Virus record (IMG/VR): IMGVR_UViG_3300049218_000139
Span: 1 to 35,570 of that record
DNA length: 35,570 nt
From: a virus
Reading direction: 5' to 3' (one strand)
In this document: in pieces, positions 27,756 through 33,561 of the stretch
Position numbering within the stretch: the stretch's first letter is position 1
Layout: each line of letters opens with the position of its first letter
The notes under the pieces: generated by a model
Seen by the model: only the letters and a program-made list of their open reading frames with translations
Database searches by the model: none
Told to the model about the DNA's origin: nothing
Made by a program: the position numbers and the translations under genes

Positions 27756-27959
27756 TTAATCGCCGCCACGCCGGTCGGGCAAGCACAAGCCGATCCACCA
27801 TGCCAGGACGAGGAACGTCACCGCCCAGGTGACAGCGCTGTGCCAATCGTTGAGAGAAACCATCCAGATCCAGAAAAACGGCGATAGCATAAGCGCGACC
27901 GCGCAGATGATGATGACCGAGCCTTTCCAGATATAGCGAAGGTTGCGCCAGATGGTCAC
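27756..27959 (-). CDS. Small two-span membrane protein (67 aa)
   Basis: A 67-aa protein with two hydrophobic segments, about residues 14-36 (VIIICAVALMLSPFFWIWMV) and 42-61 (VTWAVTFLVLAWWIGLCL), and an arginine-containing tail. It is unusually rich in tryptophan. Translation starts at a GTG that overlaps the stop of the ribbon-helix-helix gene (GTGA), so the two are coupled. It lies far from the lysis genes, so superinfection exclusion or envelope modification is as likely as lysis. No family recognised. Confidence 0.7.
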   Translation of the reverse strand: MTIWRNLRYIWKGSVIIICAVALMLSPFFWIWMVSLNDWHSAVTWAVTFLVLAWWIGLCLPDRRGGD

Positions 27960-28093
27960 GCCTTTCCCTGCGCCGAAATAACCCGCGCTAGATACTCATT
28001 CACCGAGACACCTTCCCGCTTCGCCACCGCCTTGAGCTTGCGGACGAGTGAAGCGGGCAGCCTGATTTCAACGCGGATTTTCTTCGGAGGCAT
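27956..28093 (-). CDS. Ribbon-helix-helix DNA-binding protein (45 aa)
   Basis: A 45-aa frame from ATG 28093, preceded by AAAGGA at normal spacing. It begins MPPKKIRVEIRLPASLVRKL, the strand-then-helix of Arc/CopG/MetJ-type repressors, and continues with AKREGVSVNEYLARVISAQG, the second helix. Such proteins bind DNA as dimers, often to tandem half-sites and often at their own promoter. Ten copies of a GCGCCA motif lie just upstream of this gene (28115-28278), making it the natural candidate to bind them. Its gene is coupled to the small membrane protein that follows. The length is that of a minimal RHH domain. Confidence 0.88.
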   Translation of the reverse strand: MPPKKIRVEIRLPASLVRKLKAVAKREGVSVNEYLARVISAQGKA

Positions 28094-28114
28094 TGCTCGG
28101 TCCTTTCAGAGTTT

Positions 28115-28278
28115 GCGCCATATTGCGCTATAACTGCGCCAAATCATGGCTTCGGGGTGGGGTGGTGCGCCATATCCTGCGCCAAATCATCGGCCCTTCG
28201 GGCCGTTTTGGCGCGATTTGGCGCAAACCGCCCCTCCGCCACCGTTTTTTGCGCCATAACTGCGCCATAAGCGCGCCA
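28115..28278. repeat. Array of ten GCGCCA motifs phased at about 10.5 bp (operator array or origin)
   Basis: The hexamer GCGCCA starts at 28115, 28136, 28167, 28179, 28251, 28262 and 28273 on +. A one-mismatch copy (GCGCTA) starts at 28125, and inverted copies (TGGCGC) at 28209 and 28219. Most are extended as TGCGCCATAA/T or TGCGCCAAATCAT. Offsets from the first copy are 0, 10, 21, 52, 64, 94, 104, 136, 147 and 158, all within about one base of multiples of 10.5. All copies thus face the same side of the helix, in four clusters. The array lies between the RepA-like ATPase gene and the ribbon-helix-helix gene; its last copies reach the ATPase stop codon. It could be an operator array for that repressor or a phage replication origin. 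Confidence 0.9.
28191..28205. other. Short perfect hairpin inside the repeat array
   Basis: CGGCCC (28191-28196), a 3-nt loop, then GGGCCG (28200-28205), followed on + by TTTT. It sits in the centre of the phased array, at the switch from direct to inverted motif copies. Too few Ts follow for a confident terminator, and no plus-strand gene ends here. Confidence 0.55.
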
Positions 28279-28280
28279 AA

Positions 28281-29498
28281 TCATGAAGGCCTCTTGGTGT
28301 GATTGACCTTTACGCCGGTCGCTTTTTTGCGGTGGTTCGGGTCGACAAATTCCACTTCGAACAGCAGTCCCGACTTCATCCATGTCTCAATCATTTGCTT
28401 CGCCTGTCCTTCTGTGACATCCAAACGCTTGGTCAAAACCAATCCCGCCCAGCGACGGTTTGCCGGACCCCGACGCGTGCCGGCGTATAAAATCCCCGGT
28501 TCGAAATCCTGATCAATGATGTCCAGCACCGCATTAACCTGGGCCGAAGTGACATCCTGAAACACGCTCGGCGGCCTCCAGGATTCGAGCGCTGTGACAG
28601 TGTCGCCGTTCGGATAATCCGGCGTACCGTTGCCCAGAGCGACCGGCGCCAGGTGAAACCATTGCGCTTTCTCGGCCTTGGGCGCCATGTTCGATTTCGC
28701 ATCGTCGAGGCGGATGTACGAATGCCGCTTCTCCGCGGCAACGCCGAGGCGCTCGGCTTCTTCCTCCGGCATCGTTTGCAGGATGAGGCCAGCCCTGGCG
28801 TGGTCGGTGAGCGCCTTGGCGCCCCGGCTGGCATCGATGTCCACAACGGCGCCTTTACGGGTGTGGTGGACCAGCAGAACGGCGCAGTTGACTTCGTGGG
28901 CAATCTGCGCCCACGCCGCCGCCGCAGCCGCCTGCTGGGTGTTGCTGTTTTCATCGAGGTCGTGGCTTCGGACGTATGGATCGACCACCAGGAGCCCGAT
29001 CTCGCAAAGCCGGCATTCCTGGATGATCGCGTCCTTGTCCGGAAAAATGACCGTGCCGCCATCCGGCCCAATCGCCGCCACCGTAAGCGGCCTGTCGCGG
29101 CCGCTGTTCATGAATACCGCGCCCTTCGCATCATCGGCAGCGATGTTGTGGCGCATCATCAGCGCGGCCAACCTACGGTCCATTTCATCCAACGGGTCTT
29201 CGAGATTCATGATCCACGAATTGACCTGATGGTGAATATGATGGCCGAGGAACGAACGCCCGGTCGCTGTTGCCAGAGCTATCGCCATGGCCAACTGACT
29301 TTTGCCGACGCCGCCTGGCGCCACCAGCACGGTGATAAAACCGCGCATGAGAATGGTGCCATAAAGCCATGGCCTGGGCGGGATCTGTGACGGATGCCGC
29401 AAACTCGCCGGCGTGATGTTGAGAGGGGGCAAGGAAACGACCCTACCGCGCGCCTCTCCGCCGACAGGAAGGCCCCATGTCGGGTCATCGGCCATCAT
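28281..29498 (-). CDS. RepA-like RecA-fold ATPase (replicative helicase type)
   Basis: A 405-aa protein with Walker A APGGVGKS (residues 60-67), NLEDPLDEMDRRL at about 98-110, Walker B LLVVD (169-173) and VLLVHHTRKG at about 208-217. This is the layout of the AAA_25/RepA hexameric helicase group found on plasmids and phages. The last 90 residues (VTSAQVNAVLDIIDQDFEPG onward) look like a winged-helix module and could bind DNA or the replisome. It probably unwinds DNA at the phage origin or acts in recombination-dependent replication. No primase domain is present. The first ATG of an ATGATG pair overlaps the upstream stop. Confidence 0.88.
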   Translation of the reverse strand: MMADDPTWGLPVGGEARGRVVSLPPLNITPASLRHPSQIPPRPWLYGTILMRGFITVLVAPGGVGKSQLAMAIALATATGRSFLGHHIHHQVNSWIMNLEDPLDEMDRRLAALMMRHNIAADDAKGAVFMNSGRDRPLTVAAIGPDGGTVIFPDKDAIIQECRLCEIGLLVVDPYVRSHDLDENSNTQQAAAAAAWAQIAHEVNCAVLLVHHTRKGAVVDIDASRGAKALTDHARAGLILQTMPEEEAERLGVAAEKRHSYIRLDDAKSNMAPKAEKAQWFHLAPVALGNGTPDYPNGDTVTALESWRPPSVFQDVTSAQVNAVLDIIDQDFEPGILYAGTRRGPANRRWAGLVLTKRLDVTEGQAKQMIETWMKSGLLFEVEFVDPNHRKKATGVKVNHTKRPS

Positions 29499-32100: not shown

Positions 32101-32273
32101 TTCCCTATGTTGCGCTGCAAAAGGAGGTGGATTTTTGCGAATTCGACAAAGAAAAAGAGGCCCGGCGGCGCATTGGGAACGCCGCCGGGCCAGTTCACGG
32201 AGGAAACGTCAGTCCAATAGGCGCGCTCAACAACCCGTTGCCACATCCGAGCGCGGAATGTGCGGGGGATCAT
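32097..32273 (-). CDS. Possible 58-aa coupled gene containing the terminator hairpin
   Basis: A 58-aa frame from ATG 32273, which overlaps the GcrA-like stop as ATGA. It ends at TGA 32097, which overlaps the next gene's ATG in the same way. Such double coupling supports a real gene. The N-terminal part is basic (PRTFRARMWQRVVERAYW). The middle (NWPGGVPNAPPGLFFF) is encoded by the 12-bp-stem hairpin and its T-rich tail. The product is otherwise unlike anything I know. It may be a translated attenuator rather than a protein with its own task, or the frame may be open by chance. Confidence 0.45.
   Translation of the reverse strand: MIPRTFRARMWQRVVERAYWTDVSSVNWPGGVPNAPPGLFFFVEFAKIHLLLQRNIGK
32143..32191 (-). 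terminator. Rho-independent terminator-like hairpin in the early leftward operon
   Basis: GGCCCGGCGGCG (32159-32170) pairs perfectly with CGCCGCCGGGCC (32180-32191) across a 9-nt loop. On the minus strand the stem is followed at once by TCTTTTTCTTTG, giving a strong intrinsic terminator. On the plus strand there is no T-run. It would stop leftward transcription coming from the Cro-like and GcrA-like genes before the replication genes, unless translation of the overlapping 58-aa frame or an antiterminator prevents folding. Confidence 0.75.
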
Positions 32274-32794
32274 GCCGCGACCTCGTATTCGGCATCGTCG
32301 AGGCGGCTGGCCTGGGCGACGCATTGGTCGCAGCGGAAGCGATAGCGAGTCGCAACAAACGGCTCGTTGCAGTTCAGGCAGCGCCGCGCGACGCGCAGCG
32401 CGTCTTCGGGCGCGATCTGCTCCGCCGGCCGGGTCAAGCCGAGTCTGGCAATCACGGTTTCCACGTCCCTGATCGGGACGTGGAACGCCCTGGCGAGTTC
32501 GTAGTTGTCGCGCCCCTCCGCCACCCACTCCTGCAGCGTGGCGAGACGCCGAAGCAGCTTGCGGACGCCGTCGCTGCGCGGAAAAATGTAGAAAACGCAA
32601 TGCGTGGAAATTCGGAACAAAATTTTTTCACGTTCCGGCAAGCCGAGCGCGCGGCGCATCGAGGTGACGGCGTCGGGCGACTTGCCTAGCGCGAGGCCGA
32701 TGGCGATGGCGGACAGCCCGCGCTTCCATAGCGCGCGCAGGGAGACCTTCTGTTCGTCGGTCCACGTCGGCGGCCGGCCGCGCGCTCTGGTCAT
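32270..32794 (-). CDS. GcrA-like regulator with C-terminal zinc ribbon
   Basis: The start at 32794 overlaps the upstream stop as ATGA, giving 174 aa. Residues 11-53 (WTDEQKVSLRALWKRGLSAI then AIGLALGKSPDAV and RRALGL) follow the N-terminal domain of GcrA, the alphaproteobacterial factor that acts with sigma-70 RNA polymerase at promoters carrying methylated GANTC sites. A second helical region lies at 75-130 and may be another HTH (ELARAFHVPIRDVETVIARL). C139, C142, C155 and C158 form a zinc ribbon. Cellular GcrA has a similar length but a different C-terminus. Sitting in the early region, just before a terminator, it is a candidate activator of later genes. Confidence 0.78.
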   Translation of the reverse strand: MTRARGRPPTWTDEQKVSLRALWKRGLSAIAIGLALGKSPDAVTSMRRALGLPEREKILFRISTHCVFYIFPRSDGVRKLLRRLATLQEWVAEGRDNYELARAFHVPIRDVETVIARLGLTRPAEQIAPEDALRVARRCLNCNEPFVATRYRFRCDQCVAQASRLDDAEYEVAA

Positions 32795-32895
32795 GACACC
32801 GCCGCCCAAACCTGATGCGGCGAAATGCCCAGGAACCAGAACGTGGTCACGCTCAGGAACAGCGCGCAGAGCAGGAAAAACCCGATCGTGCTCAT
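32791..32895 (-). CDS. Micro-membrane protein (34 aa)
   Basis: A 34-aa frame from ATG 32895 that overlaps its upstream and downstream neighbours by four bases each. Nearly all of it is one hydrophobic segment (TIGFFLLCALFLSVTTFWFL) followed by a short tail GISPHQVWAAVS. It is too short for a domain. Position between the Cro-like and GcrA-like genes and the ATGA couplings support that it is translated. Function unknown. Confidence 0.65.
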   Translation of the reverse strand: MSTIGFFLLCALFLSVTTFWFLGISPHQVWAAVS

Positions 32896-33048: not shown

Positions 33049-33234
33049 TCAGGCGCACCCATTCGCCTCCAAAAGCTCGACGGGCACAATCGGCAGGCCG
33101 CGCGCCATCTCGTCGCAGATGCGCTTGGTCTCCTGCTCCTGCCACGCCCGGTCCAGCAGGATCAGGTTGCCGCGGGCGATGTCGAGCTGGCGGACCGCGT
33201 TCTTGCGCAGCCGGGTGTATTGTTCGGGGGTCAT
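33049..33234 (-). CDS. Hypothetical early protein (61 aa)
   Basis: A 61-aa helical protein coupled to the Cro-like gene (ATGA at 33231-33234). The sequence TPEQYTRLRKNAVRQLDIAR then WQEQETKRICDEMARG forms two amphipathic helices, and the tail ends in a lone cysteine (EANGCA). As the second gene from the early promoter it is likely made early after infection. It could be a partner of the Cro-like protein, as YdaT-type genes are for YdaS, but I see no similarity that shows this. Confidence 0.7.
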   Translation of the reverse strand: MTPEQYTRLRKNAVRQLDIARGNLILLDRAWQEQETKRICDEMARGLPIVPVELLEANGCA

Positions 33235-33485
33235 TCGGTCGCCTGCGCCGGCGGCGCCGAGTCGCTGGGCGTCTGCGCGGCAAGCACCTTCCGCGCCTCT
33301 TCCGCCAGATCGGGCCGGATTTCCTCGACCAACATGCCGGTGAGCGACGAAATAGTGAGCAAATGCCTAGCAGGAACGTCTTTCCAGTTGGTGATCGCTG
33401 CGGGCGTCATTCCGAGCTTGCGCGCGAGCGCGGCGGGGCCACCCACTTTTTTCAAAACAGCAGTCAGCGGCGAGGAATAGGACAT
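33231..33485 (-). CDS. Cro-like repressor, YdaS family
   Basis: The start at 33485 gives 84 aa; upstream residues in the longer frame overlap the operators. The core VLKKVGGPAALARKLGMTPA followed by AITNWKDVPARHLLTISSLT and VEEIRPDLAEEA is the YdaS_antitoxin/Cro pattern, including the VPA triplet after the recognition helix and the RPDL end. These proteins bind operators between the divergent repressor genes and favour lytic growth. The ATG directly abuts operator O1, and no ribosome site is visible, so the message may be leaderless or nearly so. It is the first gene of the leftward series. Confidence 0.88.
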   Translation of the reverse strand: MSYSSPLTAVLKKVGGPAALARKLGMTPAAITNWKDVPARHLLTISSLTGMLVEEIRPDLAEEARKVLAAQTPSDSAPPAQATE

Positions 33486-33499
33486 ACACAACTTGTGTA
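33485..33499. promoter_or_regulatory. Operator O1 (15-bp palindrome)
   Basis: TACACAACTTGTGTA is a perfect inverted repeat around a central base. It touches the start codon of the Cro-like gene, so a bound repressor would block that gene's promoter or start. Confidence 0.8.
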
Positions 33500-33520
33500 C
33501 GGAAAACTCAGGCTTTGCAA

Positions 33521-33535
33521 GACATTTTTTGTGTC
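33521..33535. promoter_or_regulatory. Operator O2 (15-bp imperfect palindrome)
   Basis: GACATTTTTTGTGTC has the same 15-bp frame as O1, with G/C instead of T/A at the outer positions. Its centre is 36 bp from O1 and 26 bp from O3. Confidence 0.65.
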
Positions 33536-33546
33536 CGCGACGCTCA

Positions 33547-33561
33547 TACACGGAAGATGTA
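33547..33561. promoter_or_regulatory. Operator O3 (15-bp palindrome)
   Basis: TACACGGAAGATGTA matches TACAY-N5-RTGTA and overlaps the -10 box (TATAAT, 33560-33565) of the CI-like gene. Binding here would shut off the repressor's own promoter, as lambda OR3 does. Confidence 0.75.

Follow-up and report, generated by a model that had tools for sequence, protein, structure and literature searches.

The Rep protein of SaPIs and Cch2 of SCCmec are helicases whose C-terminal domain binds short iterons located directly downstream of their own gene; their helicase families are DUF927-related and Primase_Cterm/D5-like (PMC7581432). In RSF1010, the iterons are read by a separate protein, RepC, and priming is carried out by RepB′ at hairpins (PMC4234260). 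The archaeal plasmid pRN1 carries a stem-loop downstream of its replication gene that is conserved in structure and not in sequence, and its initiator (ORF904) ends in a C-terminal winged helix (PMC4234260). GP46 of the lactococcal sk1-like phages is a RecA-fold helicase resembling RepA/AAA_25, which failed to bind the double-stranded DNA assayed (PMC8965321). A class combining a RepA-type helicase with an iteron array was not reported in the open-access papers searched.

The locus investigated here lies on a 35.6-kb virus contig with podovirus-type structural genes (IMGVR_UViG_3300049218_000139), the whole stretch of which (35,570 nucleotides) is referred to as the window. Its large terminase is 46–51% identical to those of phiV10-like and Pseudomonas AF-like phages. 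On the minus strand, the gene of a 405-aa AAA_25 ATPase (28281–29498) comes first, and 187 bp of non-coding DNA, which hold a repeat array, separate it from the downstream gene of a 45-aa ribbon-helix-helix (RHH) protein (27956–28093). The array is very probably an iteron replication origin, and the gene that it directly follows would encode its initiator, an RSF1010 RepA-type helicase with a C-terminal winged helix; the virus is most likely a phage of Alphaproteobacteria. An arrangement of iterons around a hairpin next to the initiator gene is well known from origins; this layout, the helicase-type reader and the occurrence of the cassette on plasmids all point to an origin function. Elsewhere in the window, genes of a GcrA-like cell-cycle regulator (32270–32809) and of a YdaS/Cro-like repressor (33231–33551) were observed, and an ORF at the end of the contig (35407–35550) consists of tandem LLAALWSPV units.

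As with SaPI Rep and Cch2, the array lies directly 3′ of the helicase gene and is probably read by the C-terminal domain of the helicase. The helicase core, however, is of the RecA-fold RSF1010 RepA/AAA_25 type and not that of the SaPI Rep families, and the locus would therefore work like the SaPI-type rep-ori without being a member of that group. It further differs in the structured hairpin at the centre of its array and in its putative reader, a winged helix whose wing code can be deciphered. With RSF1010 it shares a helicase core homologous to RepA and, at the probable origin, iterons plus hairpins, but RSF1010 RepA has only 279 aa, and helicase, iteron binding and priming reside on separate proteins. 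The downstream stem-loop kept as a structure and the C-terminal winged helix are reminiscent of pRN1, in which, however, the initiator joins an SF3 helicase to an archaeo-eukaryotic primase and iterons are absent. GP46 is likewise a RecA-fold, RepA/AAA_25-like phage helicase, but an iteron array has not been described for it.

The ATPase is predicted from its sequence to be an RSF1010 RepA-type hexameric helicase. It matched Pfam AAA_25 (4e-37), its core matched the PDB profile of RSF1010 RepA with an E-value of 2.7e-34, and Foldseek gave fold matches to 1nlf/1g8y (TMt 0.74–0.77); the RecA-fold core is homologous to RepA and contains Walker motifs. The RepA match ends before the C-terminal domain, and the residues past it form a winged helix in the predicted AF2 structure (pLDDT 91). 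This domain, the putative iteron reader (residues 312–405; 28284–28565, minus strand), showed matches to RQC, MarR, PadR, DtxR and FtsK-gamma domains. The tip of its wing, residues 389–393 (H R K K A; 28320–28334, minus strand), includes R390 and K391, the candidate specificity residues. Among the window genes scanned, no primase was recognised adjoining the helicase, unlike in the plasmids described below. A terminator-like site was observed on the plus strand at 28294–28321, within the 3′ end of the helicase gene and antisense to it.

The array occupies positions 28114–28281 (minus strand) and comprises ten 10-bp iterons, which read as NNATGGCGCA-like units in helicase sense. Iteron 1 (28272–28281) overlaps the helicase stop codon and is followed by iterons 2 (28261–28270) and 3 (28250–28259), all on the minus strand. 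Iterons 4 (28216–28225) and 5 (28206–28215) are inverted, i.e. on the plus strand, and iteron 5 adjoins the central hairpin CGGCCC-TTC-GGGCCG (28191–28205). Iterons 6 (28178–28187), 7 (28166–28175), 8 (28135–28144), 9 (28124–28133) and 10 (28114–28123) are again on the minus strand; iteron 9 carries a single mismatch. The preliminary description had counted ten GCGCCA motifs within 164 bp, and all were recovered at the sites claimed, nine being exact: seven direct copies (28115, 28136, 28167, 28179, 28251, 28262 and 28273) and two inverted copies (28209 and 28219), besides the mismatched GCGCTA at 28125. The 42-bp series at 28125, 28167, 28209 and 28251, the central hairpin and both flanking genes were also borne out. 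The nine exact copies form the densest hexamer cluster of the whole window, and third-order Markov resampling (n=60) yielded a maximum of 5 copies. Reading the array and its flanks by eye revealed no AT-rich stretch beside it (the 1-kb profile is about 60% GC), and the GC skew of the window was uninformative, giving no origin signal.

A strict helical phasing of 10.5 bp had also been proposed. Helical phase was measured from the core centres of the motifs; the starts of the seed motif misplace the inverted copies. The phase coherence of the array at 10.5 bp was R = 0.88, with p = 0.02 against a null in which tight clusters were kept intact and shifted independently. The phasing is thus real in the window, yet less extreme than its appearance, because spacing within clusters is 10–12 bp anyway. 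In 60 relatives it was variable and amounted to a tendency and not to a strict rule (mean R 0.59 versus 0.395 expected; p<0.05 in 25 of the 60).

When viral contigs were scanned for three spaced GCGCCA units by DNA only, using no protein information, numerous arrays in non-coding DNA, with a hairpin at their centre, were obtained; the scan also returned many coding tandem repeats, which were excluded by eye. Most of the arrays start where an AAA_25 helicase gene ends, at its stop codon or just past it, and are oriented like the one in the window (loci beside AAA_25 genes include L042, L060, L078, L087, L088, L106, L115, L130 and L140). In Microcystis phage Mae-Yong1326-1, the helicase of which is 28% identical, the array lies about 145 bp past the helicase gene. 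The earlier statement that no phage array with the GCGCCA unit had been described agrees with the open-access literature searched, but arrays of this kind abound in public phage sequences that lack annotation. A search of phage records by DNA similarity gave no match. A near-identical contig (L005, L009 and L161) was not taken as an independent relative, as it represents the same phage and adds nothing. Two close structural relatives with 77–78% identical terminases (L010 and L011) have a different replication module, with neither the genes of the window's helicase region nor an array, and are therefore uninformative on the array; the difference between them and the window reflects an exchange of replication modules between close relatives.

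A protein-only search with the helicase alignment yielded 80 viral loci and 26 loci from bacterial genomes, the latter mostly of Acetobacteraceae; 104 were usable. The top 7-mer in the 350 bp past the stop codon occurred in 6.1 copies on average, versus 2.6 at the end of the gene and 2.7 further downstream. Of the 69 non-redundant relatives sharing 43% identity or more, 60 had five or more copies of the top 7-mer, so that in most of them an array does lie directly downstream of the helicase gene, the position known from the SaPI-type rep-ori. The preliminary description had named the loss of the motif from phages keeping the genes as evidence against it. For the helicase, the opposite was found: most of its relatives keep the array, though its unit can change and its phasing is a tendency only. 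Multiple short direct repeats are thus tied to a cognate initiator, as in iteron origins. No array could be detected in the available DNA of the helicase relatives L313, L315, L338, L340, L178, L223, L262, L263, L266 and L006.

GCGCCA is used by about half of the loci from the protein search. The rest carry other units at the same place, among them TTGACGC, AACCGTAGC, AACGGCGC, AAGTGCTGC and TTGATGC, and a 10-bp skeleton, NNNYGNNGCR, fits most units. The layout in helicase sense is conserved: direct copies at about +9, +20 and +31 after the stop codon are followed by an inverted copy at about +67, the hairpin, a direct copy at about +97 and further direct copies at about +140 to +165. Neighbouring iterons are mostly spaced by 11–12 bp. 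The central stem was significant in 44 of 49 loci and occurred in 48 different sequences, indicating that the hairpin is conserved as a structure and not as a sequence. In part of a more distant clade, one gene lies between helicase and array. Many members of this clade (L267–L346) have such an inserted gene, which places the array at about +470 to +1080. The near-identical helicases of L267 and L268 differ in whether the array directly follows; gene traffic between helicase and array looks frequent in this clade.

Covariation with the iteron bases, analysed in 62 relatives with clear iterons, was concentrated in the C-terminal winged-helix domain, where it involved the wing and the loop that precedes helix 2. 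Residue 391 tracked iteron positions 6–7, and residue 390 tracked position 9. By eye, lysine at residue 391 was paired with GGCGC, asparagine with GAC and arginine with GTA, GCT or GAT, while arginine at residue 390 was paired with C9 and glycine with another base. To limit the influence of common ancestry, nulls were generated by trait simulation along a tree built from the ATPase part alone. Against these nulls, the C-terminal domain contained all significant columns for position 3 (8 of 8) and for positions 6–7 (5 of 5), and the association of residue 391 with G6C7 exceeded that in all 3485 simulations. Iteron positions 1–2 also gave significant columns, which were not enriched in this domain. 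As iteron and domain are physically linked, the covariation is partly shared descent, an effect that the tree-based control reduces but does not remove.

Two held-out sets were used. The first comprised distant relatives fetched afterwards, the plasmids and the loci found by DNA alone. For residue 390 and base 9 it showed 19 R/C9, 6 non-R/non-C9, 2 R/non-C9 and no non-R/C9 combinations (Fisher p 9.5e-5). The iterons of the two R/non-C9 loci (L314 and L086), as well as those of L267, were misread by the automated reading, and these loci were counted as exceptions. In the second set, which overlaps the first and, like it, includes close relatives that are not independent, 40 distant-clade loci were covered by extending the search past the intervening gene; among the C-terminal columns, residue 391 again ranked first for positions 6–7 (0.59, next 0.34), R390 occurred with C9 in 33 of 34 cases, and glycine or serine occurred with A9 in 6 of 6. 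Sister proteins showed the same: at residue 391, L286 has K (with GC), L287 has R (with GA) and L288 has H (with AC), and L290 (R390, GGAGCA) differs from L291 (S390, GGAGAA) at both residue and base. Together with the predicted winged-helix fold, the covariation argues strongly for direct binding of the iterons by the winged helix. Since the repeat and the tail of the helicase change together across more than 100 related phages and plasmids, a recognition code can be derived from the sequences.

The cassette was also found on two complete circular plasmids, pVL1_6 (L347) and pR24_3 (L348), of the alphaproteobacterial hosts Methylobacterium and Microvirga, both of which carry a toprim primase, the helicase and the array. 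In pVL1_6, the annotated genes and the ten proteins scanned included no other recognisable initiator; in pR24_3, a 424-aa MarR/HTH-like protein could be another initiator. Both plasmids appear to replicate with the cassette of toprim primase plus RepA-type helicase. A phage tape-measure gene is present on pVL1_6, which may therefore be a phage-plasmid.

The preliminary description had considered the array either as a large autoregulatory operator of the RHH protein or as a replication origin; the association with the helicase, the covariation with the winged helix and the circular plasmids speak for the latter. The RHH gene directly adjoins the array, and the array spacing of 10–12 bp is the one at which RHH sub-sites are typically found, as would be expected of a large cooperative operator or partition site of the ParR, Arc or omega-repressor kind. 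The iteron bases, however, follow the tail of the helicase, and phmmer found no RHH homologue in 103 relatives (a weak test for 45 aa), most of which have the array. The array is thus not conserved with the RHH gene, as an Arc/ParR-like operator would be, and this protein is a neighbour only, outside the conserved unit. The array may regulate the RHH gene, but the RHH gene is not what maintains it, and an RHH operator or partition site is very improbable. Binding by the helicase tail would also be compatible with a multi-site operator, by which the helicase would repress or time transcription of its own operon and the downstream genes, the array not being an origin; the genes on either side of the array do belong to a single transcription unit, and 20 bp separate the array from the RHH gene. 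A consensus-only scan found no promoter-like site in the region, the downstream genes vary among relatives while the array stays, and the plasmids carry it within a replication cassette. Ten iterons and a structure-conserved hairpin also exceed the needs of an operator, which we therefore regard as an unlikely explanation.

The hairpin with a conserved stem past the helicase gene might instead be part of an RNA element, i.e. a 3′ untranslated structure or a terminator. It generally lacks a T-run, and no terminator-like site was predicted at its position; the array region is non-coding and had no match in Rfam, and the direct repeats at 10–12 bp and the covariation with a protein indicate duplex DNA; an RNA element is very improbable. 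In the window, terminase genes are found about 0.6–2.8 kb downstream, and in some relatives they are no more than a few kb away, as might be expected near a DNA packaging (pac) site. The array nevertheless goes with the helicase, with which its unit covaries, and plasmid pR24_3 has the array but no annotated terminase; a pac site is thus extremely doubtful.

In the proposed origin mechanism, the winged helices of several helicase subunits would bind the direct iterons on both sides as well as the inverted iterons, all on one face of the DNA, and this binding would gather the helicase around the central hairpin. We infer only that the helicase ring would load onto the opened or extruded hairpin region without a separate loader, upon which unwinding and priming would start. 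More tentatively, and with the balance of probability somewhat against it, the helicase might belong to a widely distributed class of self-sufficient initiators. In these, a replicative helicase with a DnaB/RepA-like RecA fold would recognise the duplex origin by its winged helix and would load itself at the hairpin without a separate initiator or loader. Specificity would then be determined largely by two wing residues, so that the origins of phages would have split into many types incompatible with one another.

A likely origin and initiator can be assigned to a large set of unannotated phages, prophages and plasmids of Alphaproteobacteria. The RSF1010 helicase fold and origin recognition would be united in one protein, a combination that was not found in the literature searched. 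The natural pairs of iteron and wing would constitute a specificity code for the winged helix, and this code would predict replication incompatibility groups of phages from sequence. Small orthogonal replicons for Acetobacteraceae and Methylobacteriaceae would become possible.
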